From a virus, in IMG/VR virus record IMGVR_UViG_3300044675_005482, positions 49,998 through 113,997 of that record: a stretch of 64,000 bases of DNA, one strand, 5' to 3'. A program made the translations under genes and the position numbers. The notes under the pieces are model-generated. The model did no database searches and was not told the DNA's origin. It was given only the letters and a program-made list of their open reading frames with translations. The stretch's first letter is position 1. Every line of letters starts with the position of its first letter. This document shows positions 50,499 through 61,562 of this stretch, piece by piece.

Positions 50499-50518
50499 TG
50501 TGGATAACCTGTGGATAA
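50499..50518. promoter_or_regulatory. pair of DnaA-box-like sites
   Basis: Two perfect TGTGGATAA (reverse complement of TTATCCACA), starts 11 bp apart, i.e. about one helical turn. A looser site lies just to the left. Confidence 0.65.
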
Positions 50519-50939: not shown

Positions 50940-50960
50940 AGTCCGCCTTTCTTGATTAGG

Positions 50961-50995
50961 ATTATAACATAAGGGACTGACATTGTGCCAGTCCC
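50961..50995 (-). promoter_or_regulatory. TGTCAG-type promoter inside a terminator hairpin
   Basis: Minus-strand TATAAT (50961-50966), 10 bp, TGTCAG (50977-50982). The TGTCAG lies in the stem-loop GGGACTG...CAGTCCC (50973-50995) that ends the upstream gene. Confidence 0.8.
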
Positions 50996-51010
50996 CTAAT
51001 GTATATTAGA

Positions 51011-51975: not shown

Positions 51976-52166
51976 TATTCATACCTTTCGTTAGAAGAGT
52001 TCATTATATCAGTAGCCACTGACAATAAATGCCTGGTTGTCTCAATCTCTGCTTGTTTAACTTTATAGAAATGATGACCATTTACATAGTCAATCTTTTC
52101 TAGGTCTTGTTCAAGACTAATTAAATGAAGTTTCATATATTCCATAAACTTAGAAGACTTAGACAT
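51975..52166 (-). CDS. small helical protein whose 3' end contains a promoter
   Basis: 63 residues (LISLEQDLEKIDYVNGHHFYKVKQAEIETTRHLL). The last residues SVATDIMNSSNER are encoded by the TGTCAG, TATAAT and AACGAAAGG elements of the next gene. Confidence 0.65.
   Translation of the reverse strand: MSKSSKFMEYMKLHLISLEQDLEKIDYVNGHHFYKVKQAEIETTRHLLSVATDIMNSSNERYE
52003..52024 (-). promoter_or_regulatory. TGTCAG-type promoter inside a coding region
   Basis: TATAAT 52003-52008, 10 bp, TGTCAG 52019-52024. It lies within the 3' end of the upstream gene 51975-52166. Confidence 0.75.
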
Positions 52167-52578: not shown

Positions 52579-53348
52579 ACATCCGCCTTTTCTCTAGATT
52601 CCAATAATACCATGTGGGTCTGACATTTTGCCATAGCCTCTTCATCTTGCCAAGAGCCTTGGTTACATTCTGAGCAGAATTCACCACAGTCATCTTCACA
52701 GTAATCTAATGTATCAAAAGATTGGCAAGCATAACAGCGATTCTCATATGAAAGAATTTCCTTTACCTCACCACGGACAATCTCATACTCTCCGCCCCAG
52801 CCTGTTTCTTCCTCATACTCTAATGTAAGCAGGCAGTTCGGAACAAGATTACTTAGTTTAGTTAAGATAGTTACAGCAGGTGACCATGCAGTCTCATAAC
52901 GATAGATAACCCAGTTGTCATCACCTTCTGATTTATATTCAACTAATTCTGTATTTGAATACTCCTCATCATCACGAACGGCTACATCCCACTTAGTTCC
53001 CCAGTTGGTGTTATTCCAAGAATACCAATCCTTTTGAGTCTTAGCATGTTCAATAGATTTAGCAAACCAATTAGGGTCGTCCATTGAATAATCACCACGA
53101 GAAGGCTGGCATGCATATTCCTCATCAGTAATGCCGTCATCCTTATATGAATGAATGTTGTGAAAAGCGAATACAGGATTATTATATTCAACTAATTTAA
53201 TTTTGGTGGGGAATCCAGAAGAACTAATATCACCCATACCATAAGTCTCTTGTGCTAATGTAAATGGCTTATTCAATCTATCTTTAATCATATCTACCTC
53301 AGACTTAGGTCCTTGGATAGTTAATGTGTTATAACACCAATTTGGCAT
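52575..53348 (-). CDS. Api92/YubB-like ferredoxin-fold protein with zinc tail
   Basis: 257 residues. MPNWCYNTLTI opening, DWYSWNNTNWGTKWD and TAWSPAVTILTKLSN blocks are characteristic of the Api92-like family on phages and plasmids. A C-terminal CYACQSFDTLDYCEDDCGEFCSEC adds a Cys-rich zinc module. Family function unknown; often near anti-defence genes. Confidence 0.8.
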   Translation of the reverse strand: MPNWCYNTLTIQGPKSEVDMIKDRLNKPFTLAQETYGMGDISSSGFPTKIKLVEYNNPVFAFHNIHSYKDDGITDEEYACQPSRGDYSMDDPNWFAKSIEHAKTQKDWYSWNNTNWGTKWDVAVRDDEEYSNTELVEYKSEGDDNWVIYRYETAWSPAVTILTKLSNLVPNCLLTLEYEEETGWGGEYEIVRGEVKEILSYENRCYACQSFDTLDYCEDDCGEFCSECNQGSWQDEEAMAKCQTHMVLLESREKADV

Positions 53349-53375: not shown

Positions 53376-53459
53376 ATTATACAATGGACCACTGACAATT
53401 GGAATACTTTATAAGTGTGTTTCACACCACATTTTTCAAGCTATGTGGTCAAGATCACC
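53376..53459 (-). promoter_or_regulatory. TGTCAG promoter with two Crp-like palindromes
   Basis: TATAAT 53376-53381, TGTCAG 53392-53397, degenerate TGTG(T)-N6-(C)CACA at 53416-53431 (centre 45 bp from the -10 centre) and TGTGG-N6-TCACC at 53444-53459 (73 bp). Confidence 0.75.
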
Positions 53460-53527
53460 AAATTTCCAGGAAATATATATTGACTTCGTAAACAAACTAT
53501 TATACCCTCAGCTTTTGGGGGCCAAAC

Positions 53528-53670
53528 AAAAATCCCCGCTTGCACGGGGATTAATGAAATGTACGGCTGCTAGGATCTACCAACGAAAGTAAAAAGTCCT
53601 GCTTTACTTAGCGACTTGACGAATGCCTTATCTAGCCGCACCGAACATGTATAAGAAGGCACCAGGCCTA
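53528..53670 (-). ncRNA. candidate structured small RNA
   Basis: Minus-strand TATAAT (53676-53681, overlapping the upstream stop) starts about 140 nt without any sizeable ORF, ending in a perfect terminator (AATCCCCG, loop TGCAAG, CGGGGATT then T-run, 53531-53552). Internal pairings CGGCTAG/CTAGcaGCCG, TGCCTT/AAGGCA and AGTAAA/TTTACT suggest a branched fold. Confidence 0.6.
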
Positions 53671-53676
53671 CTTAAA

Positions 53677-54042
53677 TTATACCATAACTAGTCGACTGTA
53701 TTTATTTACAAATTCATCGATAGTTAAACTGAAGACAACTGTCTCAAGGTCCTCTTCCATCAATGTAAATGTTTTGGCAGCCCAGTCAATTACTGGTACC
53801 TTGTGCTCATTGTCCGCCAATTGATTTACGCTAATGCCCCAGCCTGTTTCTGATTCCCATTCTTCGCCAACCATGCGACTAATAGCAATACGTGTAGCAT
53901 ATGACTCATCATTCCAACGAGGACGTGCTGCCTCTACAGCATTGGCCAAGTTCTCTAACATGTTATAGCCTGCCCAGTGCCCGTACAGGAATACTGTATC
54001 TCCCTTACGGTCCTTAAATCCAAAGTTTGCTCTGTCTCCCAT
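53677..54042 (-). CDS. hypothetical protein
   Basis: 121 residues. GDRANFGFKDRKGDTVFLYGHWAGYNMLENLANAVEAARPRW: a conserved-looking N-terminus (GDRAN, HWAG) known from actinophage early proteins. Function unknown. Confidence 0.8.
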   Translation of the reverse strand: MGDRANFGFKDRKGDTVFLYGHWAGYNMLENLANAVEAARPRWNDESYATRIAISRMVGEEWESETGWGISVNQLADNEHKVPVIDWAAKTFTLMEEDLETVVFSLTIDEFVNKYSRLVMV

Positions 54043-54043
54043 T

Positions 54044-54253
54044 TTATTCCGCCGTTTCTAATGTAGGTACTTCTTCTTCGATTTTGTCTAATTCTATCAT
54101 CTCGTATGAGACCTTGGCAAGTCCATCCTCGAACTTGTTTTTGTGGTGACCGCAGAAGAACAGCTCGCCTTCTACTAGCTTAATTAACCATTTAGCTTGA
54201 GCTGTACTACATGCATCACATGCAATCCATCTAGTTAGATCTTCAGAGGTCAT
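54044..54253 (-). CDS. DUF7455-like zinc protein
   Basis: 69 residues from ATG 54253. ACDACSTAQAKWLIKLVEGELFFCGHHKNKFE: CDxC and FCGHH are the family zinc ligands. Common in actinobacteria and their phages. Confidence 0.75.
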   Translation of the reverse strand: MTSEDLTRWIACDACSTAQAKWLIKLVEGELFFCGHHKNKFEDGLAKVSYEMIELDKIEEEVPTLETAE

Positions 54254-54398
54254 AGTCAACGGTTCCAAATTCTATGGTGTCAGCAATGTCATCATAAACC
54301 TGTCCGTCATCAGATGACTCCGCCCATAGTCTAATGTTGGCAATGATAACTTCACGGGCAAATTTTACCCCGTCTTCAAAACCGTCTTGGTAATCCAT
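54243..54398 (-). CDS. 51-residue acidic protein
   Basis: DYQDGFEDGVKFAREVIIANIRLWAE. Overlaps the next gene by 11 nt. Unknown. Confidence 0.6.
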   Translation of the reverse strand: MDYQDGFEDGVKFAREVIIANIRLWAESSDDGQVYDDIADTIEFGTVDYDL

Positions 54399-54399
54399 T

Positions 54400-54612
54400 T
54401 TATCTCCCTGTATATCCTGTTGGCTCGTAGTCTGATGTATAACTCTCTACTAGGTTATACTTATCACGAATGCGTGATACTTTCTCAATGCTACCAGTTC
54501 CCACATTGAATGTCAATGGTCCAATCGCTTGTGGGTCCAGGCCAATCATCTCCGCATCCCAGGTAGCCCTCGCAAAGGCTACCTGGTTTGGAGCGGTTAA
54601 TTCAAAATACAT
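54400..54612 (-). CDS. hypothetical protein
   Basis: 70 residues. TAATG coupling to the upstream gene fixes ATG at 54612. ELTAPNQVAFARATWDAEMIG. Unknown. Confidence 0.7.
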   Translation of the reverse strand: MYFELTAPNQVAFARATWDAEMIGLDPQAIGPLTFNVGTGSIEKVSRIRDKYNLVESYTSDYEPTGYTGR

Positions 54613-55262
54613 TAGCACTCCCTAACGTGACATACTTCTTGTTCTGTCACTTCGATATTGCCATTGTGTGAATCGGCATAGATAGCATCTGCAATCTCAT
54701 CTTCGATGTCATAGTCCTCAAGCAAATCAAGTTCCATGGTTCCGCTAACCTCGATAGTTGCAGTCCATTCAACGCTACGTGTTAGAGAGATATCTAAAGC
54801 CTCAGCAATTGCACGTAATGTGTCTTGGTCTTGTGAATCAGCATATGCCTCAGCAATAATATCTTTAACTGTTTTAACTTTGTCTTCAAAGATGCCAACA
54901 CGCTTTTGTGCTTGACGTGCATTGTGTAGGTCCCACTCAATTGATGTGACCTTGTCAGTTGCATACTCTGCATCTGAGTATCCACGAATAACTTTATAGG
55001 TTACTAATAGATTTGGGTTATATGTATCAGGAACAGTTACTGCAGTTGTTGTTTCTTCCATGGTTTCCTCTTTCGTTTGTGTAGGTTGTATTGTAGCATG
55101 CTCCACTGACACCAATGTAGTATCTCGACCACACGGGCATGTGAGCTTAGTCACACCAGATGGGAATCCAAATCCATCCGATGATGTTAGTTCAATTAGA
55201 GAATCACATTCATCTGGGTCACATACAAATGTGTACTTACTTGATATGAGTTCGTTGGTCAT
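54612..55262 (-). CDS. zinc-ribbon plus helical protein
   Basis: 216 residues from the nearly leaderless ATG 55262. N-terminal four-Cys module (FVCDPDEC, KLTCPCG), a Thr-rich linker, helices (YADSQDQDTLRAIAEALDIS) and an acidic tail. An RNA polymerase- or DNA-binding regulator is possible. Confidence 0.7.
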   Translation of the reverse strand: MTNELISSKYTFVCDPDECDSLIELTSSDGFGFPSGVTKLTCPCGRDTTLVSVEHATIQPTQTKEETMEETTTAVTVPDTYNPNLLVTYKVIRGYSDAEYATDKVTSIEWDLHNARQAQKRVGIFEDKVKTVKDIIAEAYADSQDQDTLRAIAEALDISLTRSVEWTATIEVSGTMELDLLEDYDIEDEIADAIYADSHNGNIEVTEQEVCHVREC

Positions 55263-55269
55263 GACGAGA

Positions 55270-55334
55270 ATTATACACCTGGCCACTGACATTTACAAGC
55301 TTTTTCAGGGATTTTATTTGTGATTCGTAACACA
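55270..55334 (-). promoter_or_regulatory. TGTCAG promoter with Crp-like palindrome
   Basis: TATAAT 55270-55275 (7 nt before ATG 55262), TGTCAG 55286-55291, -35-like TTGTAA at 55293-55298, palindrome TGTGA-N6-ACACA 55319-55334 centred 54 bp from the -10 centre. Confidence 0.75.
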
Positions 55335-55364
55335 CAAAATGTGCCTTCACATCTGGGGGCTTTG

Positions 55365-55438
55365 CGATCCATAACGGACTTGAACCGTCGACCTCTACCG
55401 TGACAGGGTAGCGCTCTAACCAACTGAGCTAATGGACC
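55365..55438 (-). tRNA. tRNA-Asp (GTC)
   Basis: Minus strand: acceptor GGTCCAT/ATGGATC, anticodon stem CTACC/GGTAG around CTGTCAC (GTC), T-arm GACGG-TTCAAGT-CCGTT, discriminator G. The only tRNA on the leftward strand. Confidence 0.9.
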
Positions 55439-55444
55439 TAATGG

Positions 55445-55467
55445 TGAGCAGTTTTAAATCTTGCTCA
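55445..55467 (-). terminator. TGAGCA/TGCTCA hairpin, copy 1
   Basis: 23-nt hairpin downstream of the DUF932 gene; 21 of 23 bases match the hairpin at 57241-57263. Confidence 0.55.
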
Positions 55468-55480
55468 GGATTTTTTTTAT

Positions 55481-56485
55481 TTAGAAATTCATAACCAATT
55501 TCTTGATTTTGTTTTTCTCAGCAGTTAGAACGGGGTCAAATCCAGATGCACCCGCCATAAGAGTTTCACCATTGCCACGACCAGAACGATAGTAATCAAG
55601 GCGCTCAGTAAGTGCATTAAACGCACCCCATTTTGTTCCCTTGATATTAGCGTTAGTTGGTGAGTTATGATACAAATCATCAAGCAGGACAACTTTGTTT
55701 TCCCACTTCTTCAATGCACCCTTAGTGTCTTTATCAGGCTTTGGATAAATTGTCTGAATCAACTTTGAGAATTCAGCATCGGTGATTGCTTGAGTGTAAA
55801 GCGCCTTTGCTTCAACTTCAAACTCATCAAAATAACCAAGAGCAAGACCAAGAGTCTCACGAGCAACTTGAATGCGACCTTCAACAGATTGCGTGTGGCG
55901 AATCTTGAAAGATTGCTTTGCATTACGCATTGCAAGATTCAAAGTATTTTGGCAAACAACACGAACAGGAGTAACCGCTGCTTGAACAGCAACAGAACCA
56001 TCGTGTGATGTCCATACGATTAGATATAACTTTGTCTCATCATTGGCGCCTTGTGGGTCAAGAACCATTGTGCGAGGAATATCTACAGTGCCGAATACAA
56101 CTTTGCCCTTCTTAAGAGAACCAGCAGATTCCCAACGGCAATCAGCATTCGCATCGTGAATTGCATCTGCAAACTGAAATAATTCTTCATTCTGCACAGG
56201 CTTGTAACGCTTTCCAACAGTTGCAAGAACATCAGTTCCGCCATTGAATGGATTTGTGCGAACAACTAGAGATGAATCTGAAACATCATTCCAAGATTCG
56301 TCAATGTGATTTGTGATAGGTGATAAGCGAACATTCCAATTTGCTAACTTTGCTTCTTCAAGCATTGTTGCAGTTGTAACTTCCTCATCTTTTGTGAAGA
56401 TGCGATTTGCTAGATTATGCCAAGCAGGAGCACCACGGAGAGCGAAAGCAACTTCGCCATTTTCGACTTCGAGATTGTGAGCCAT
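55481..56485 (-). CDS. DUF932 (phage/plasmid-like) protein
   Basis: 334 residues. HNLEVENGEVAFALRGAPAWHNLA start, GKRYKPVQNEELFQFADAI, VRVVCQNTLNLAMRNAKQSFKIRHT. Typical DUF932 size and blocks. Widespread phage early protein of unknown function, possibly anti-restriction. AACGAAAGG leader. Confidence 0.88.
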   Translation of the reverse strand: MAHNLEVENGEVAFALRGAPAWHNLANRIFTKDEEVTTATMLEEAKLANWNVRLSPITNHIDESWNDVSDSSLVVRTNPFNGGTDVLATVGKRYKPVQNEELFQFADAIHDANADCRWESAGSLKKGKVVFGTVDIPRTMVLDPQGANDETKLYLIVWTSHDGSVAVQAAVTPVRVVCQNTLNLAMRNAKQSFKIRHTQSVEGRIQVARETLGLALGYFDEFEVEAKALYTQAITDAEFSKLIQTIYPKPDKDTKGALKKWENKVVLLDDLYHNSPTNANIKGTKWGAFNALTERLDYYRSGRGNGETLMAGASGFDPVLTAEKNKIKKLVMNF

Positions 56486-56514
56486 TTTTTACCTTTCGTT
56501 TAGTTGATTTGGCA

Positions 56515-56590
56515 ATTATAACAGGTGGCACTGACATTGTCTAGATTAGTTAGTCATTTGTCCGAATTGATCCGTGTGAGTAATCTCACA
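56515..56590 (-). promoter_or_regulatory. TGTCAG promoter with perfect Crp-like palindrome
   Basis: TATAAT 56515-56520, TGTCAG 56531-56536, TAGACA 56538-56543, palindrome TGTGA-N6-TCACA 56575-56590 (65 bp from -10 centre), directly followed by AATTTTCAGG. Confidence 0.8.
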
Positions 56591-56603
56591 AATTTTCAGG
56601 GGC

Positions 56604-56633
56604 TGTGGATAACCGTCTTAAACCTGTGGATAA
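56604..56633. promoter_or_regulatory. second pair of DnaA-box-like sites
   Basis: Perfect TGTGGATAA at 56604-56612 and 56625-56633, starts 21 bp (two turns) apart. Confidence 0.65.
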
Positions 56634-56673
56634 GTCCGCACATATGCGGGCGTCTCAGATAGTGGGAAGATGA

Positions 56674-56694
56674 GGCGGGATTTTAGATCCCGCC
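56674..56694 (-). terminator. hairpin terminator
   Basis: GGCGGGAT and ATCCCGCC with a 5-nt loop, downstream of the gene ending at 56702. Confidence 0.7.
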
Positions 56695-56701
56695 CCAAGC
56701 T

Positions 56702-56962
56702 TTAAAGTATTCCGATTTCCTGAGCAGTTAGTGGCTTATGTGTGTTCATTTTATTTACAATACTTTCATCAAGAAACATTGCAGTTGTTTTCTTTTTCTT
56801 TACGCTATCAAACACATAAGCATTTACTCTGCCGCTAAACTTACGCAGGTTGCTAAATACTAATTCCGTTAGGTATTCTTTATCTACACCTTGCTCAGAA
56901 TAAATTGTTACATCGTTCATCTTGTTTGCGTCATAGATTTCAATTCTAAAACGATTTTTCAT
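56702..56962 (-). CDS. hypothetical protein
   Basis: 86 residues, beta-rich N-terminus (RFRIEIYDANKMNDVTIY), then YVFDSVKKKKTTAMFLDE. Unknown. Confidence 0.7.
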   Translation of the reverse strand: MKNRFRIEIYDANKMNDVTIYSEQGVDKEYLTELVFSNLRKFSGRVNAYVFDSVKKKKTTAMFLDESIVNKMNTHKPLTAQEIGIL

Positions 56963-56989
56963 TTTGTTCCTTTGTTAGTAGGGATAAGA

Positions 56990-57025
56990 ATTATAACATT
57001 GGGGGCTAGAGTTTGTCTAGCCCCC
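56990..57025 (-). promoter_or_regulatory. promoter within a 10-bp terminator stem
   Basis: TATAAT 56990-56995; TAGACA (57014-57019) falls in the hairpin GGGGGCTAGA/TCTAGCCCCC (57001-57025). TGTCAG box absent here. Confidence 0.65.
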
Positions 57026-57031
57026 TAAAAG

Positions 57032-57214
57032 TTATGCGCCGATTTTTACCATAGCCCAGCGCAGACCATTTTCTGTATTCAATCCTAGTTTAGTTAGATT
57101 AGGACGGATAGAAACGATTTCTGCGATAGTGCCAGTAATTCCTGATTTACCAGTTGTAAAGACATCGCCCTTACGATAGAAGCGACCCTTAGTAGTATCT
57201 AGAATTGGTGACAT
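57032..57214 (-). CDS. SH3-like small protein, copy 1
   Basis: 60 residues from ATG 57214. YRKGDVFTTGKSGITGTIAEI ... NGLRWAMVKIG; paralog of 57807-57980. Small KOW/SH3-like barrel pattern. Confidence 0.7.
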   Translation of the reverse strand: MSPILDTTKGRFYRKGDVFTTGKSGITGTIAEIVSIRPNLTKLGLNTENGLRWAMVKIGA

Positions 57215-57240
57215 TGTATTACCTTTCGTTAGTGGGTTGG

Positions 57241-57310
57241 TGAGCAGTTTTACAACTTGCTCAGGTTGTCCCACTCTATTTATTTAGACACGCATTTCTG
57301 TGGGGCGTGT
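57241..57310 (-). terminator. two hairpins, including TGAGCA/TGCTCA copy 2
   Basis: TGAGCA/TGCTCA hairpin at 57241-57263 and an ACACGC/GCGTGT hairpin at about 57287-57310, both downstream of the gene ending at 57319. Confidence 0.55.
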
Positions 57311-57318
57311 TGTATTAG

Positions 57319-57735
57319 TTAGAGATACTTAGCAATCTGCTTCATTGTAGAAGCATTTACTGTTTCCTCATCTGTCATCTTTAGAATTGTGAGAGCATTT
57401 GTGATGTCCTCTTTCATTTCCTTATAGGTATGAGTGTGAATAACCTCAAAATCCTTTTCAGGTTCAGCAGGGAACTCTGAGCCATTTACTGTGATGTCAA
57501 AATCAACATTAAGTGTCTTGTTCCAAGAACGATAGTTTGTGCGAAGGTTCTCAGCCTTTGAGAAATTGTCAATAGCCCACTTGCCAATTTCCTTGCGCCA
57601 CTTTTCTTGCGCCTTCTGATACTTTGCTTCGTTAGCACCTTGTGTAGCATAGTCTTTTTCCAACTGTGCTAGACGACCTTCTAGTGCCTTGATTACCTTT
57701 GGTGTTGCCACCTTTACTGTTATTGCTCTACTCAT
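57319..57735 (-). CDS. hypothetical protein
   Basis: 138 residues. A long N-terminal coiled coil (KVIKALEGRLAQLEKDYATQ), then a W/Y-rich part and VIHTHTYKEMKEDITNALTIL. Common type in actinophage early regions; function unknown. Confidence 0.75.
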   Translation of the reverse strand: MSRAITVKVATPKVIKALEGRLAQLEKDYATQGANEAKYQKAQEKWRKEIGKWAIDNFSKAENLRTNYRSWNKTLNVDFDITVNGSEFPAEPEKDFEVIHTHTYKEMKEDITNALTILKMTDEETVNASTMKQIAKYL

Positions 57736-57767
57736 TGTGTTTCCTTTCGTTGGTTGGTTGTTTGAGT

Positions 57768-57796
57768 ATTATAGCAGGGGGGTCTGACAACCCCCC
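57768..57796 (-). promoter_or_regulatory. TGTCAG promoter whose box is the loop of a hairpin
   Basis: TATAAT 57768-57773. GGGGGGT (57777-57783) pairs with ACCCCCC (57790-57796), leaving exactly CTGACA (the TGTCAG box, 57784-57789) as loop. Confidence 0.75.
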
Positions 57797-57806
57797 TGCC
57801 ATTTCA

Positions 57807-57980
57807 TTACGCTAGGCTATCGGCAAGAACTGTTGTCCAGCGTTCGCCATTTTGTGTTTCTAAGCGAACACGCACCGAGCCAGATGCGTTAGGAATAATC
57901 TCTTTAATTACTCCAGTTTCTTTTGACTTCAGAGTGGTGAATAAATCTCCAACCTGATAGACTTTGTTATCTAGTGTCAT
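57807..57980 (-). CDS. SH3-like small protein, copy 2
   Basis: 57 residues. YQVGDLFTTLKSKETGVIKEI ... NGERWTTVLADS, paralog of 57032-57214. GAAAGGAAG leader. Confidence 0.7.
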   Translation of the reverse strand: MTLDNKVYQVGDLFTTLKSKETGVIKEIIPNASGSVRVRLETQNGERWTTVLADSLA

Positions 57981-58006
57981 TTTGCTTCCTTTCTGTTTAG
58001 GGTCTG

Positions 58007-58062
58007 ATTATAGCAGAGGCTACCGACATTTAGTAGCCCCTGCCTGTGTGAGTTATCTCACA
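58007..58062 (-). promoter_or_regulatory. TGTCGG promoter, hairpin and Crp-like palindrome
   Basis: TATAAT 58007-58012, TGTCGG 58023-58028 inside a GGCTAC/GTAGCC hairpin (58018-58038), perfect TGTGA-N6-TCACA at 58047-58062 (45 bp). Confidence 0.8.
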
Positions 58063-58324
58063 ATTCTTCAGGTAGCCAAGCACCCAAGTGGTGTTGTTCG
58101 ATGATAGCCCAAGCGGGTGCGTGAGTCTGACCCTTATACGATACGCCTTCAGGCATTTCGATAGCACGATCAAAATCTTCTTCGTAGTATGCGTCAATTG
58201 CTTCGATGCAAGGTTCGACCATAGAAAGTGGAACGGGTGGGTAATGATTACCCTGCAAGTGATAGCCAATAGCAACTTCTAAATCTAATTCTTGCGATAG
58301 GTCTAGTGCTGTGTTGTATCCCAT
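58058..58324 (-). CDS. hypothetical protein
   Basis: 88 residues. AIGYHLQGNHYPPVPLSMVEPCIEAIDAY ... LGAWLPEEL. This N-x-H-Y-P-P-V-P pattern recurs in actinophage early genes. The stop overlaps the palindrome. Confidence 0.75.
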   Translation of the reverse strand: MGYNTALDLSQELDLEVAIGYHLQGNHYPPVPLSMVEPCIEAIDAYYEEDFDRAIEMPEGVSYKGQTHAPAWAIIEQHHLGAWLPEEL

Positions 58325-58326
58325 TA

Positions 58327-58551
58327 TTAGTTACCTTCCTTAATTGTTAATTCTGCCCAAGAGTTACCTTCATTTGCAACTGTAAGAGTGTTAGACATAG
58401 CAAGAGCGTGAATTGTTGCACCCTTACACATCTTTTCAATTTCAGATTGTGGTAGGTTGATTAGCGCAGGCAATAACTTTGCGTCAATTTTATCCAAGTC
58501 AATAATTGCCTCGAATACAACTGTGTGTGGAACTTTCATTAGATTAGACAT
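58327..58551 (-). CDS. hypothetical protein
   Basis: 74 residues. DLDKIDAKLLPALINLPQSEIEKMCKGATIHALAMSN. Co-transcribed with 58058. Unknown. Confidence 0.7.
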   Translation of the reverse strand: MSNLMKVPHTVVFEAIIDLDKIDAKLLPALINLPQSEIEKMCKGATIHALAMSNTLTVANEGNSWAELTIKEGN

Positions 58552-58580
58552 TTGTTACCTTTCGTTGTTGGAATAAGAGT

Positions 58581-58666
58581 ATTTTAGCATAGGCCACTGA
58601 CATTTAATAATCGAGCTTCGGCGTGTTTCTAATTTATTTTGTGATAAACCTCACAATTTTCAGGGT
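58581..58666 (-). promoter_or_regulatory. TGTCAG promoter with perfect Crp-like palindrome
   Basis: TAAAAT 58581-58586, TGTCAG 58597-58602, TGTGA-N6-TCACA 58640-58655 (64 bp), then AATTTTCAGGG. Confidence 0.8.
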
Positions 58667-58733
58667 GTGTCGTAACTTGACGTAAACGGCTTTTTGCCCC
58701 CACACCTTTGCGGGCTTCTTTCAGTTTGTCAAG

Positions 58734-58877
58734 TTAATTTTGCCAAATGTCGGGATCAACATCCTGCAAATATTCTTTTGCAAGCTTTTGTTGTTCGTCT
58801 GATCCAGTTACAGTGGCCATTAATGCATTTAAATAGCCAAGGTCCATTTTATAAAAAGGATTTTCGTTACTCATCAT
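58734..58877 (-). CDS. 47-residue hypothetical protein
   Basis: From the ATGATG at 58877, with AAGGGG upstream. YKMDLGYLNALMATVTGSDEQQKLAKEYLQDVD. Followed by a long gap rich in repeats. Confidence 0.6.
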   Translation of the reverse strand: MMSNENPFYKMDLGYLNALMATVTGSDEQQKLAKEYLQDVDPDIWQN

Positions 58878-58998
58878 GTTGCCCCTTATGTTTAATTTTA
58901 CGTGTGTACTTTTTTTTATTGCGAACAGGTTGCGCCGCATTGCTACGGCGCAATTCCTGAATGCGTTTTACTTTATTTTGAACTGAAGTTAGGAACAT
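58867..58998 (-). CDS. 43-residue basic protein
   Basis: VKRIQELRRSNAAQPVRNKKKYTRKIKHKG, strongly basic, possibly DNA- or RNA-binding. Bridges the gap between its neighbours by overlapping both. Confidence 0.5.
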   Translation of the reverse strand: MFLTSVQNKVKRIQELRRSNAAQPVRNKKKYTRKIKHKGQHDE

Positions 58999-59164
58999 TG
59001 TAATTACTCGCTTCGTGAAATCTTTTTACATCAAATCGCTCATTGTCTTTCGCAAACATTTCTGCGAAGTCGTGAACAGTTTTAGAAAAAACAGCGGGGT
59101 GAACTTTATTGCTGAGATACTTTAGAATTTCAGCGGTTGCGATGTAATCTTTTCGTGTCATCAT
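58973..59164 (-). CDS. hypothetical protein
   Basis: 63 residues (start ATG 59164 or 59161). YIATAEILKYLSNKVHPAVFSKTVHDFAEMFAKDN; a pattern seen in actinophage small proteins with similar N-termini. Function unknown. Confidence 0.7.
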   Translation of the reverse strand: MMTRKDYIATAEILKYLSNKVHPAVFSKTVHDFAEMFAKDNERFDVKRFHEASNYNVPNFSSK

Positions 59165-59361
59165 TTTTGTGTAACCTTTCCATTTCGGTAGAAGTTCTTA
59201 GTGTGCATTTTACCAGAAGGCTCTGACAAATTATAGGTTGCGTATTCTTTAGCATCGCCAAAGTCTGAGCATTTATCGAATTCGTGAACGGCGGTTAGAG
59301 CATCTGAAAAATCCCACGATGCAACTCTTTCACCATCATAAGCAATAGTTAGTTTATACAT
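59161..59361 (-). CDS. hypothetical protein
   Basis: 66 residues from ATG 59361 (TAATG). Beta-rich start (YKLTIAYDGERVASWDFSDALTAVHEFDKC). Unknown. Confidence 0.65.
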   Translation of the reverse strand: MYKLTIAYDGERVASWDFSDALTAVHEFDKCSDFGDAKEYATYNLSEPSGKMHTKNFYRNGKVTQK

Positions 59362-59501
59362 TAAATGTTCCAATCTTCTAGGGCGCATTCACACGCTTCT
59401 ACATCATAATTATTTTCATCGCCCCAGAATAAAAATCCAGCGCCACCGCATTCATCACAACTCGCTGCGATAATTTCTAAGTATTGTTTTACTTTAGCCA
59501 T
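59361..59501 (-). CDS. 46-residue zinc protein
   Basis: SCDECGGAGFLFWG and CECALEDW form a half DnaJ-type zinc ribbon (CxxCxGxG). AACGAAAGGG leader. Confidence 0.65.
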   Translation of the reverse strand: MAKVKQYLEIIAASCDECGGAGFLFWGDENNYDVEACECALEDWNI

Positions 59502-59616
59502 TCAGGTTTTCCCTTTCGTTTGTTTTGGTAATTGTAGCAGATAGGACTGACAAGGCTTCCGCCTTGCTTGCTTCACGTTGTTCGATAACGTGCTTCTTGA
59601 ATTCTTCTAAGTTCAT
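59494..59616 (-). CDS. 40-residue protein whose 3' end contains a promoter
   Basis: Helical N-terminus (LEEFKKHVIEQREASKAEA); its tail LSVLSATITKTNER is encoded by promoter elements. Overlaps both neighbours. Confidence 0.55.
   Translation of the reverse strand: MNLEEFKKHVIEQREASKAEALSVLSATITKTNERENLNG
59531..59552 (-). promoter_or_regulatory. TGTCAG-type promoter inside a coding region
   Basis: TACAAT 59531-59536, 10 bp, TGTCAG 59547-59552, inside the 3' end of gene 59494-59616. Confidence 0.75.
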
Positions 59617-59738
59617 TCGAACGCCCCCTCTTCTAGTAATCCTAATTCAATGTTAAACAATTCATCGGGAGTGGCTTCGGATAAATCTACCCAGCCAGCA
59701 CCCTCGTCATCCATTCTAAAAATTTCAATGTATCCCAT
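59613..59738 (-). CDS. 41-residue acidic protein
   Basis: GYIEIFRMDDEGAGWVDLSEATPDELFNIELG. ATGA coupled. Unknown. Confidence 0.6.
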   Translation of the reverse strand: MGYIEIFRMDDEGAGWVDLSEATPDELFNIELGLLEEGAFE

Positions 59739-59740
59739 TA

Positions 59741-59947
59741 TTATTCACCAACCTTTACTGCGATTGTTGCGAATTTATTTCGCAGACCGCCTGTGCGAAT
59801 TTCGATTAAATAGGCTTCAGCGTTGTCGCCATAATAAATTTCAGGGCGAGGTTCTGCTGAAACAATTTCGCCTGAAAAGTGGCGAGAGTTTGAGCGATAG
59901 TTTTTCCCTACAAGTAGGCTTTCGATTGTGTATAGTTTGGTAGCCAT
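59741..59947 (-). CDS. small beta-rich protein
   Basis: 68 residues. KLYTIESLLVGKNYRSNSRHFSGEIVSAEPR: SH3/KOW-like pattern, perhaps distantly related to 57032 and 57807. Confidence 0.65.
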   Translation of the reverse strand: MATKLYTIESLLVGKNYRSNSRHFSGEIVSAEPRPEIYYGDNAEAYLIEIRTGGLRNKFATIAVKVGE

Positions 59948-59980
59948 TGGCAGACCTTCTTTCGTTTTGTTAATAATGGT

Positions 59981-60065
59981 ATTTTACCAGAACGGACTGA
60001 CATTTTCCAATTCTGCAAGGGTTTGTCTCATTATTTGGAGCGTGGGCAATGTGATAAGCATCACA
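59981..60065 (-). promoter_or_regulatory. TGTCAG promoter with Crp-like palindrome
   Basis: TAAAAT 59981-59986, TGTCAG 59997-60002, TGTGA-N6-TCACA 60050-60065 (74 bp). Confidence 0.8.
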
Positions 60066-60092
60066 CGTAAATGTCCGATTTGTCTGTCAAAT

Positions 60093-60197
60093 CGACACGC
60101 CGCAAATTTTCAGGGAATTTATAACTCTTTCATAACGACACGCCCGACGCCGCACCACTGTGGGCGGGCCAGCTTGATTTTGTCAAGCCGACACGCC
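60093..60197. repeat. three CGACACGCC repeats and hairpins in a 200-bp gap
   Basis: CGACACGCC at 60093-60101, 60136-60144 and 60189-60197, with AAATTTTCAGGG between and a CTTGA/TCAAG hairpin. No gene seen between 59948 and 60206. Confidence 0.55.
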
Positions 60198-60206
60198 GTT
60201 ATTTAT

Positions 60207-60404
60207 TTATTCATTTTCTAATTCTGCTAAATAATCTTCGTGCTCTACTAATCCAATCGCAAACGCTACAGGATCGCAACACTCTAAAATTTCGGCAGGT
60301 GTGAAAGTAGAGTAACCGATTTTTACAGTAGGGTAAATATCGTTTAGCAAATCTATAAAGCTTTCTTTTATTTCTAAATCTTTTTCAAATTGTGTTTTTT
60401 CCAT
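60207..60404 (-). CDS. hypothetical protein
   Basis: 65 residues, helical and acidic (FEKDLEIKESFIDLLNDIYPTVKIGYSTFTPAEILECCD). Unknown. Confidence 0.65.
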   Translation of the reverse strand: MEKTQFEKDLEIKESFIDLLNDIYPTVKIGYSTFTPAEILECCDPVAFAIGLVEHEDYLAELENE

Positions 60405-60405
60405 T

Positions 60406-60516
60406 TTAGTTTAATCCGTTTTCTCTTAGGTCTTTTATTACTAGGCGCAACATTAGCAGGGCGGGAATACCGATACCTAATTGCACAAGGGTGGTTAGTA
60501 TGCGTGTAGTAGTCAT
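60406..60516 (-). CDS. 36-residue membrane peptide
   Basis: One hydrophobic helix (LVQLGIGIPALLMLRLVI) with basic end. TAATG coupling with the upstream gene. Confidence 0.55.
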   Translation of the reverse strand: MTTTRILTTLVQLGIGIPALLMLRLVIKDLRENGLN

Positions 60517-60656
60517 TACTTATTCTTCTTTCTCTTGATTACTTTATAAAGTGTAACACCTACCACCGACAAGATAATAAACGCCCACGATTGGGAGATA
60601 TATAGAAAGTCCCCTAGGTCAATCATTAAGCCATATTCATTTAGTTCTATAGTCAT
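60516..60656 (-). CDS. 46-residue membrane peptide
   Basis: Helix SWAFIILSVVGVTLYKVI and a KRKKNK tail. Coupled on both sides. Confidence 0.6.
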   Translation of the reverse strand: MTIELNEYGLMIDLGDFLYISQSWAFIILSVVGVTLYKVIKRKKNK

Positions 60657-60844
60657 TACTTATCTCCAAACATATTAAAGACCTCATCTAATTGGTCATC
60701 GGTTAGGTGGTCAATTTCAATAGCCTTAGCAAATCCGAAAATATCTTCTTCTTCTGCCATTAGTTTTTCATACATTTCTTCTTCTGCTAGGTGTGCGTAT
60801 TGGTCTTGCACATCTGCTTGAATTGTATCCCATTTGCTCATCAT
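60656..60844 (-). CDS. acidic hypothetical protein
   Basis: 62 residues (WDTIQADVQDQYAHLAEEEMYEKLMAEEEDIFGFAKAIEIDHLTDDQLDEVF). Helical. Unknown. Confidence 0.65.
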   Translation of the reverse strand: MMSKWDTIQADVQDQYAHLAEEEMYEKLMAEEEDIFGFAKAIEIDHLTDDQLDEVFNMFGDK

Positions 60845-60845
60845 A

Positions 60846-61013
60846 TTACTTACCTACCTTTATCTCTTGAACATTAGCGGAAAACTTTTGTGATTTAGCG
60901 AGGTCGCTAGTATTTAATTCTTTAATTAGGTTATCTATCTCCTTAGTGTTAGTAGCAACATTACCAATAGATAGTAGGCGAGAGCCTTGCCATAGTGAGT
61001 ATGTGATAGTCAT
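60846..61013 (-). CDS. 55-residue hypothetical protein
   Basis: SLWQGSRLLSIGNVATNTKEIDNLIKELNTSDLAKSQKFS. AACGAAAGAAG leader. Unknown. Confidence 0.6.
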   Translation of the reverse strand: MTITYSLWQGSRLLSIGNVATNTKEIDNLIKELNTSDLAKSQKFSANVQEIKVGK

Positions 61014-61048
61014 TTACTGTTCTTCTTTCGTTAGTAGTTATAGTAGGA

Positions 61049-61114
61049 ATTGTAGCGTATAGCGGGGACAAATAGGGGGATATAGCGGGGGTGTGTCGTG
61101 TGAGTTACCTCACA
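61049..61114 (-). promoter_or_regulatory. variant promoter (TGTCCC box) with perfect Crp-like palindrome
   Basis: TACAAT 61049-61054, 10 bp, TGTCCC 61065-61070; TGTGA-N6-TCACA 61099-61114 (55 bp). The palindrome covers the stop of gene 61105. Confidence 0.7.
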
Positions 61115-61257
61115 TTGACTAGGGCGTGTGTAGCGTAGTTACCGCCACACATTACGCATAGAGTCCAAGCGGTTACTCTACCGCAACCGCTAGAGCAAGC
61201 CACATAGTGGGCGGGTGTGTGGTAGTCGTTACGACTTTCCCATATTCTATTAGTCAT
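61105..61257 (-). CDS. 50-residue zinc protein
   Basis: VACSSGCGRVTAWTLCVMCGG: C-x3-C ... C-x2-C. TAATG coupling. Confidence 0.65.
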   Translation of the reverse strand: MTNRIWESRNDYHTPAHYVACSSGCGRVTAWTLCVMCGGNYATHALVNVR

Positions 61258-61427
61258 TAGTTAGACTCCTTATCTAAACAGTTGATACATTGGCAACCCT
61301 TAGAGGATAGCAAGGCTTTTAGTATCGCCTTTCGTGTATAGGTATCTAGTCCATATGAGGACTTGACTCCACCATTGTGAAAGTCGTGCACGATTGTGCT
61401 ATATAGTGTTTCTGTAAGTTGAGTCAT
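61257..61427 (-). CDS. 56-residue zinc protein
   Basis: First gene of the leftward arm. SKGCQCINCLDKE at the C-terminus; N-terminal helix (TQLTETLYSTIVHDFHNGG). AAAGGAGTCA leader. Confidence 0.65.
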   Translation of the reverse strand: MTQLTETLYSTIVHDFHNGGVKSSYGLDTYTRKAILKALLSSKGCQCINCLDKESN

Positions 61428-61476
61428 TATCTGACTCCTTTCTTTTAGTTAGTATCTCTAACTCCTTATACATATA

Positions 61477-61562
61477 ACTATACAGGTGGGGTCTGACAAA
61501 TTGCAACCCCAAAAAGGAATAAATCGGACATTTTAAAAAATAACTATGTGTTTTACATCACA
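61477..61562 (-). promoter_or_regulatory. first leftward promoter with Crp-like palindrome
   Basis: TATAGT 61477-61482, TGTCAG 61493-61498, degenerate TGTGT-N6-TCACA 61547-61562 (75 bp). Confidence 0.75.

Follow-up and report, generated by a model that had tools for sequence, protein, structure and literature searches.

Class I promoters of Escherichia coli, of the lac type, bind Crp dimers centred at −61.5, −71.5, −82.5 or −92.5, i.e. about 52, 62, 73 or 83 bp from the centre of the −10 hexamer. The common view is that phage promoters avoid depending on the host's metabolic regulators or rely on just one or two of their sites, and nothing relevant on Crp at actinophage early promoters was found in the literature searched. 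Crp sites of Mycobacterium tuberculosis cluster at −60 to −40 (PMC4117774). In T4, the MotA box is located 12 ± 1 bp from the −10 element (PMC2988021). Here we describe the leftward promoter region of IMGVR_UViG_3300044675_005482, analysed in a window of 64,000 nt (the whole stretch of DNA under study, to which coordinates refer) out of a full record of 113,997 bp. Among isolated Streptomyces phages that belong to this lineage, the counterpart of the region is the leftward gene block within the ~11-kb terminal repeat (PMC5764925).

Six exact copies of TGTGAN6TCACA were found in the 113,997-bp record, all within C1:105137-111111, a leftward promoter stretch of about 6 kb, and none scattered elsewhere. 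The reversed control pattern gave no exact match in the same record. The excess is confined to exact sites; matches with up to two mismatches were at chance level over the whole window (37 observed versus 34.8 expected). An explanation of the palindromes as chance matches was ruled out by the clustering of exact sites, the control patterns and the phasing in the window and in relatives. An earlier note on this DNA had listed eight Crp-like sites, described as TGTGA-N6-TCACA or close variants, with distances to the −10 centre of 45, 54, 65, 45, 64, 74, 55 and 75 bp. Every listed coordinate and distance was reproduced exactly, five of the eight sites being exact, two (55319 and 61547) having one mismatch and one (53416) having two. 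This confirms the observation of Crp-like palindromes, which is stronger than first stated.

All features described in the following are on the minus strand. Exact operators of the earlier list are TGTGAGGTAACTCACA (61099..61114), 55 bp from the −10 centre of a promoter with a degenerate box, TGTCCCCGCTATACGCTACAAT (61049..61070); TGTGATGCTTATCACA (60050..60065), 74 bp from that of TGTCAGTCCGTTCTGGTAAAAT (59981..60002); TGTGAGGTTTATCACA (58640..58655), 64 bp from that of TGTCAGTGGCCTATGCTAAAAT (58581..58602), for which many orthologues in relatives have the operator at 60; TGTGAGATAACTCACA (58047..58062), 45 bp from that of TGTCGGTAGCCTCTGCTATAAT (58007..58028), whose box lies inside the loop of a strong hairpin; and TGTGAGATTACTCACA (56575..56590), 65 bp from that of the DUF932 gene promoter TGTCAGTGCCACCTGTTATAAT (56515..56536). 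The operators with one mismatch, TGTGATGTAAAACACA (61547..61562) and TGTGTTACGAATCACA (55319..55334), are placed 75 and 54 bp from the −10 centres of the promoters TGTCAGACCCCACCTGTATAGT (61477..61498) and TGTCAGTGGCCAGGTGTATAAT (55270..55291), respectively. The operator TGTGGTGTGAAACACA (53416..53431; two mismatches), 45 bp from the −10 centre of TGTCAGTGGTCCATTGTATAAT (53376..53397), reads TGTGG-N6-TCACA in many orthologues and has only one mismatch there; a second Crp-like site further upstream, GGTGATCTTGACCACA (53444..53459; two mismatches, 73 bp), is stronger in relatives. An additional exact operator, TGTGACTAAGCTCACA (55140..55155), lies within ORF 54612-55292 and had not been listed beforehand. 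Since it is located upstream of a good promoter, TGTCAGTGGAGCATGCTACAAT (55090..55111), at a distance of 55 bp from the −10 centre, it serves as an out-of-sample confirmation.

All nine operators of the window are in helical register (R = 0.957; Monte Carlo p = 1.5 × 10−5 against nine distances drawn uniformly from 40–80). For comparison with relatives, 1,635 promoter contexts were taken from IMG/VR, 350 of them non-redundant. An exact operator is present in 549 of the 1,635 contexts and an operator with at most one mismatch in 153 of the 350 non-redundant ones; three scrambled control palindromes had no exact match in the contexts of relatives. Among 485 distinct exact palindromes, 456 are located 35–115 bp upstream of a TGTC[AG]G-N10-TANNNT promoter. 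Loss of phasing in related phages had been named beforehand as a possible refutation, but the phasing was kept (period 10.1, R = 0.763, 153 non-redundant promoters), with 21 sites at 45 ± 1, 47 at 55 ± 1, 38 at 65 ± 1, 26 at 75 ± 1, four at 85/86, eight at 60/61 and nine elsewhere. The claim that all sites lie near 45 + 10n holds for nine of nine operators in the window but not throughout the relatives, where the eight of 153 non-redundant sites at 60 form an exception class. This exception is a single orthologous family, half a turn out of register and absent from the window. More than one whole-turn distance is used in 15 of 17 orthologous promoter families, with unrelated intervening sequence, and distances of 55, 65 and 75 bp are still seen in the very divergent phages L215, L260, L269 and L289. 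Selection appears to have maintained the phased layout in hundreds of relatives, and the phages bearing it appear to form a large freshwater family, still uncultured, that infects actinobacteria.

Like E. coli class I promoters, the phage promoters have the same palindrome, a single upstream dimer site and several positions a helical turn apart. However, the phage register (45/55/65/75 versus about 52/62/73/83) is approximately 3 bp off, a departure from the textbook geometry. The phage centres are found at about −54.5, −64.5, −74.5 and −84.5, when the −10 centre is taken as −9.5, and these promoters, putative early promoters of a phage of actinobacteria, add a TGTCAG box in the spacer. With promoters of GlxR and mycobacterial Crp (Rv3676) they share the consensus, and the position −54.5 falls within the −60 to −40 cluster mapped for M. 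tuberculosis Crp (PMC4117774). In contrast to that regulon, the sites are on a phage genome, and a strict, reused phasing with a common core promoter is not described for it in the text consulted. The operator core TGTGA-K-D-T-W-W-M-TCACA, including the T-A/T centre of TGTGANNTANNTCACA, fits the actinobacterial GlxR/Crp consensus, as had been claimed.

From the sequence, host Crp/GlxR probably activates the early phage promoters in a class-I-like manner. Host RNA polymerase would transcribe the leftward early genes from about 15 small promoters of one core design, consisting of an extended −10 (TGNTANAAT), TGTCAG exactly 10 bp upstream and a −35 that is weak or absent. Nine of these promoters would have a dimer of host Crp/GlxR bound to the TGTGAN6TCACA operator, centred near −54.5, −64.5, −74.5, or −84.5 (relatives only) and facing the same side of the DNA in every case. 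The strict register would permit contact with the polymerase, the likeliest target being the alpha C-terminal domain by analogy with class I Crp promoters, and it supports the earlier proposal of an activator acting from one face. No phage-made factor would then be needed for activation when infection begins.

The TGTCAG hexamer, which is absent from the earlier note, is found exactly 10 bp upstream of the extended −10 in nearly every promoter. TGTCAG-N10-TATAAT occurs in 687 copies compared with 0–8 at any other spacing, and the strand bias of the box promoter is 2,031 versus 7. In viral contigs, the mis-spaced N9 pattern gave 50 scattered matches, a rough background, and the N10 pattern at least 120. 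At least six further leftward promoters, likewise missing from the earlier note, have the box without a Crp site: TGTCAGTCCTATCTGCTACAAT (59531..59552), TGTCAGAGCCTTCTGGTAAAAT (59207..59228), TGTCAGACCCCCCTGCTATAAT (57768..57789; box inside the loop of a strong hairpin), TGTCAGACCCACATGGTATTAT (52604..52625), TGTCAGTGGCTACTGATATAAT (52003..52024) and TGTCAGTCCCTTATGTTATAAT (50961..50982; hairpin overlapping the box). A weak promoter-like match without an operator, TGTCGGTGGTAGGTGTTACACT, is located at 60550..60571. The box is more conserved than the Crp site and separate from it, and it defines a promoter class that exists without Crp sites. As common host promoters, TGTCAG promoters are unsupported, with one match in eight candidate host genomes. 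Flanking motifs common to the promoters are CCTGAAAATT, CGACACGCC and TGTCCG.

In most promoters the −35 is weak or missing when compared with standard SigA −35/−10 sequences. TTGACA-like −35 elements (at least five of six matches, 16–19 bp) precede 27% of the Crp-site promoters and 10% of the others (control 0–1%), and a −35-like TTG at a spacing of 17–19 is seen in 35% and 12%, respectively. It is conceivable, though doubtful, that TGTCAG-N10-TATAAT is a sigma-appropriation promoter of the T4 middle type, with a phage factor at −28, auxiliary Crp sites and a region that is not immediate-early. Such a reading would be compatible with activation by Crp, and the confidences in the two overlap. 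Proteins of the WhiB family act on sigma region 4, and the phage encodes one, but whiB is located in the rightward gene block and not in the early block. The weak −35 also favours sigma appropriation, as do the position of the box and the extended −10, which resemble MotA-box promoters (PMC2988021): in both systems a box near −28 to −30 sits at an almost fixed distance. The phage box, however, is TGTCAG rather than TGCTTtA and lies exactly 10 bp upstream of the −10 instead of 12 ± 1 bp (PMC2988021), and some promoters keep a −35 remnant. A complete replacement of the −35, as in T4, was toned down as an interpretation, given the −35-like TTG at 17–18 bp in about one-third of the Crp-site promoters, a proper spacing that speaks against sigma appropriation as well. 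Streptomyces cluster BE phages (Samistivirus, Stanwilliamsviridae) belong to a related lineage and have a similar leftward block with the DUF932 gene, as well as TG[TC]C at the same −28 position. Unlike the promoters described here, their early promoters have a conserved GGG-TTG −35 and a TAGACT −10, and no exact Crp operator was found in the left ends of four BE genomes. Since these relatives combine TG[TC]C with a good −35, the contacts of sigma region 4 are not necessarily replaced by the box.

The protein that binds the palindromes is probably host Crp. The earlier note had stated that the window has no Crp homologue; none is encoded by the whole phage record, nor by 18 long relatives, so that a recognisable phage mimic, the other possibility raised there, is disfavoured and host Crp favoured. 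In 19 phage records neither PF00027 nor HTH_Crp was detected, and sigma70 region 2 was absent from 17. A phage-encoded activator of unrecognised fold, either made early or delivered with the particle, is unlikely: it would need to converge on the exact Crp consensus, the palindrome and spacer composition are close to Crp/GlxR, and the 19 records lack HTH_Crp and cNMP domains. In its favour, no known domain was recognised in the majority of the early proteins tested, and the phage is dense in operators whereas candidate host genomes show no enrichment (0–1 exact sites, one-mismatch counts similar to the control), the latter also counting against host Crp.

Nanopelagicales genomes, found via a 16S signature, were considered as candidate hosts only because of their habitat, their low GC and the presence of WhiB in the phage; no host emerged from a search of genome contigs for the DUF932 protein. 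One Crp/GlxR orthologue is present in six of eight genomes of this candidate host order searched. Its alignment with Crp of M. tuberculosis spans the full length, the SRETVNKALADFA stretch being common to both. Class III adenylate cyclase was found neither in these six Nanopelagicales genomes, all complete, nor in 17 phage records, which, for these candidate hosts, argues against simple cAMP sensing and leaves the proposed wiring to the host cAMP state unsupported. Crp of a streamlined freshwater bacterium may accordingly be able to work independently of cAMP. Taken as a whole, the earlier reading of host Crp/cAMP-wired activation is partly supported.

Activation by host Crp also has to be weighed against an opposite role, in which the promoters are silenced by host Crp or some other factor, or in which the phage, with its many strong sites, draws Crp away from host genes. 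Up to nine sites per phage genome face at most one exact site per candidate host genome, and exact sites would multiply with phage replication. Yet all sites are upstream of about −46 and none overlaps the −10 or the start, and neither repression nor titration needs a register with the −10, which was kept through many independent spacing changes; we regard such a role as quite improbable. That the phasing is merely a by-product of duplicated ancestral promoter cassettes, which may have been copied given the shared flanking motifs, is very improbable, since copying keeps one distance rather than several differing by whole turns, orthologous promoters are found at 45, 55, 65 and 75 with unrelated intervening sequence, and the pattern survives redundancy filtering.

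A whole phage lineage seems to let a single regulator of the host control how its infection cycle begins. The natural whole-turn variants represent a ready-made helical-phasing experiment for actinobacterial transcription, and a box similar to the highly conserved one revealed here can be tested in cultivated Streptomyces relatives. We tentatively suggest a new actinophage promoter class, in which an invariant TGTCAG-N10-extended −10 box is read by a host or phage factor and different clades plug in different phased activator operators, here that of Crp, possibly cAMP-independent in cyclase-lacking hosts. In the L261/L280 clade, a different palindrome, TAAC-N6-GTTA, is found at 60 bp.

The eight Crp operator-like palindromes of the earlier note (TGTGA-N6-TCACA) and their eight distances, measured from operator centre to centre of the -10 hexamer, were all reproduced. 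A ninth operator, exact and absent from that note, was found at 55140, and its distance of 55 bp from its own -10 is an unplanned confirmation of the helical register. With it, every one of the nine window operators keeps the register, an arrangement with a Monte Carlo p of 1.5e-5. A scan of the whole record (113,997 bp, of which the window covers bases 49,998-113,997) revealed six exact operators, all clustered within 6 kb; the window shows no excess of looser matches with up to two mismatches.

Loss of phasing in related phages had been named as evidence against a functional register, but phasing held up in the relatives, which number in the hundreds in IMG/VR. Their 1,635 promoter contexts were reduced to 350 non-redundant ones, and 153 of these contained a site with at most one mismatch. 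The distances of these 153 sites pile up at 45, 55, 65, 75 and 85 bp (best period 10.1, R 0.763). Of 485 distinct exact palindromes, 456 precede a promoter of this same type by 35-115 bp, and scrambled control palindromes gave no exact match in the promoter contexts. When promoters were grouped by downstream gene, 15 of 17 families showed more than one whole-turn distance class, and the stretch separating operator from promoter was unrelated in sequence. Phages having only one to three proteins in common with this one still place the operator at 55, 65 or 75 bp. The claim that all distances fall near 45+10n stands for the window; in the relatives it has one exception, operators at 60 bp, which form a discrete class rather than scatter, mostly at orthologues of the leftward promoter 58602. 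In these contigs (L061, L063, L067 and others) the operator is half a turn out of register, and DnaA boxes lie directly upstream of it. An apparent class at 72-73 bp is explained by tandem operators: it consists of upstream copies paired with a second site at 45.

In the strong promoters, TGTC[AG]G is separated by exactly 10 bp from the -10 downstream of it, which is mostly TGN-extended. In the relatives this spacing occurs in 687 copies compared with 0-8 at any other, and the core promoter is found 2,031 times on one strand and 7 times on the other. This phage has 14 strong copies, all leftward and within 10.5 kb; elsewhere in the genome the next-best match scores no better than a reversed control, and one reverse-strand match above control level overlies the copy at 50982. 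Strong hairpins immediately precede the -10 at 57767-57802, 58005-58045, 50960-50998 and 56985-57030, with energies of -19.7 to -27 kcal/mol and z of about -5 to -6; in three of them the loop or stem contains TGTC[AG]G. Their appearance is that of a terminator ending the upstream gene and merged with the promoter that follows.

The phage encodes a DnaE-like polymerase (tblastn relatives in Streptomyces phages, 56-58% identity), a DnaB-like helicase, primase, RecA, a RuvC-like protein, endonuclease VII and WhiB, predicted proteins which mark it as an actinophage. Isolated Streptomyces cluster BE phages (Samistivirus, Stanwilliamsviridae) encode, close to the left genome end, proteins with about 51% identity to the DUF932 early protein of this phage. 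The terminal repeats of cluster BE phages, about 11 kb long (PMC5764925), comprise a similar cluster of small genes in leftward orientation, and from this synteny we infer that the present region is early. In the first 12-14 kb of four such phages (L334, L378, L379, L380), early promoters (47 examples) have a good -35 (GGG-TTG), the -10 TAGACT and TG[TC]C (TG[TC]CC) at -28, the same position as the box here; none is accompanied by an exact Crp site, and no published description of this promoter family was found. In the present lineage, a -35-like TTG at 17-19 bp occurs in 35% of those promoters that have a Crp site, versus 12% of those lacking one (controls 6%). Since cluster BE combines a similar box with a good -35 and no exact Crp site, and the -35 is weak here, the box seems ancestral, and the Crp sites appear to have been added alongside a decayed -35.

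Keeping register while varying distance is characteristic of proteins that reach polymerase through a flexible arm, class I Crp promoters being the example, and the operator-bound protein would touch polymerase in this way. Taking the -10 centre as -9.5, the operators are centred at about -54.5, -64.5, -74.5 and -84.5. This register is about 3 bp off the E. coli class I positions, and the polymerase contact therefore need not be identical. In M. tuberculosis, Crp sites cluster between -60 and -40 (PMC4117774), a range that includes the -54.5 centre. Literature searches returned no account of a phage lineage whose early operons combine phased Crp operators with an invariant spacer box. Crp-dependent promoters are already known, and the TGTCAG box is most likely the truly new part.

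As stated earlier for the window, no Crp homolog is encoded there, and the phage and its long relatives are likewise without cNMP-binding domain, HTH_Crp or sigma70 region 2. Habitat, low GC and WhiB led to the guess that Nanopelagicales is the host order; phage isolates described from it to date are much smaller, at 39 kb (PMC10202952). Six genomes of this order (G019, G020, G023-G026) each encode one Crp which aligns over its whole length with M. tuberculosis Crp, the SRETVNKALADFA stretch being common to both (two of the six proteins were examined in full). Their own consensus operator sites are few or none. The proposed wiring to host cAMP was not supported, as class III adenylate cyclase was found neither in these six genomes of guessed hosts nor in the phages. 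Should such bacteria be the hosts, cAMP would probably exert little or no control over the action of Crp here. Retention of a Crp/GlxR orthologue without this cyclase makes a cAMP-independent Crp possible in these streamlined freshwater bacteria.

Two contigs of a different phage clade, L261 (9228-14165, 16 core promoters) and L280 (10027-14593, 11), have no Crp site at these promoters; each exact TAAC-N6-GTTA palindrome that they contain, five in total, is 59-60 bp from the -10, which suggests another activator.

Exact DnaA boxes (TTATCCACA; five in the window, 0.8 expected) occur in pairs (56604-56612 and 56625-56633; 50499-50518), one pair immediately preceding the Crp operator at the DUF932 promoter, and in relatives many lie at -140 to -90 upstream of core promoters. 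They may mark an origin of replication, or DnaA may serve as a co-regulator. TGTCCG was found near -60 and -51. The motif GGCGTGTCG / CGACACGCC occurs three times in the window (60093-60101, 60136-60144, 60189-60197; none expected) and in relatives often lies near -50, between Crp site and promoter.
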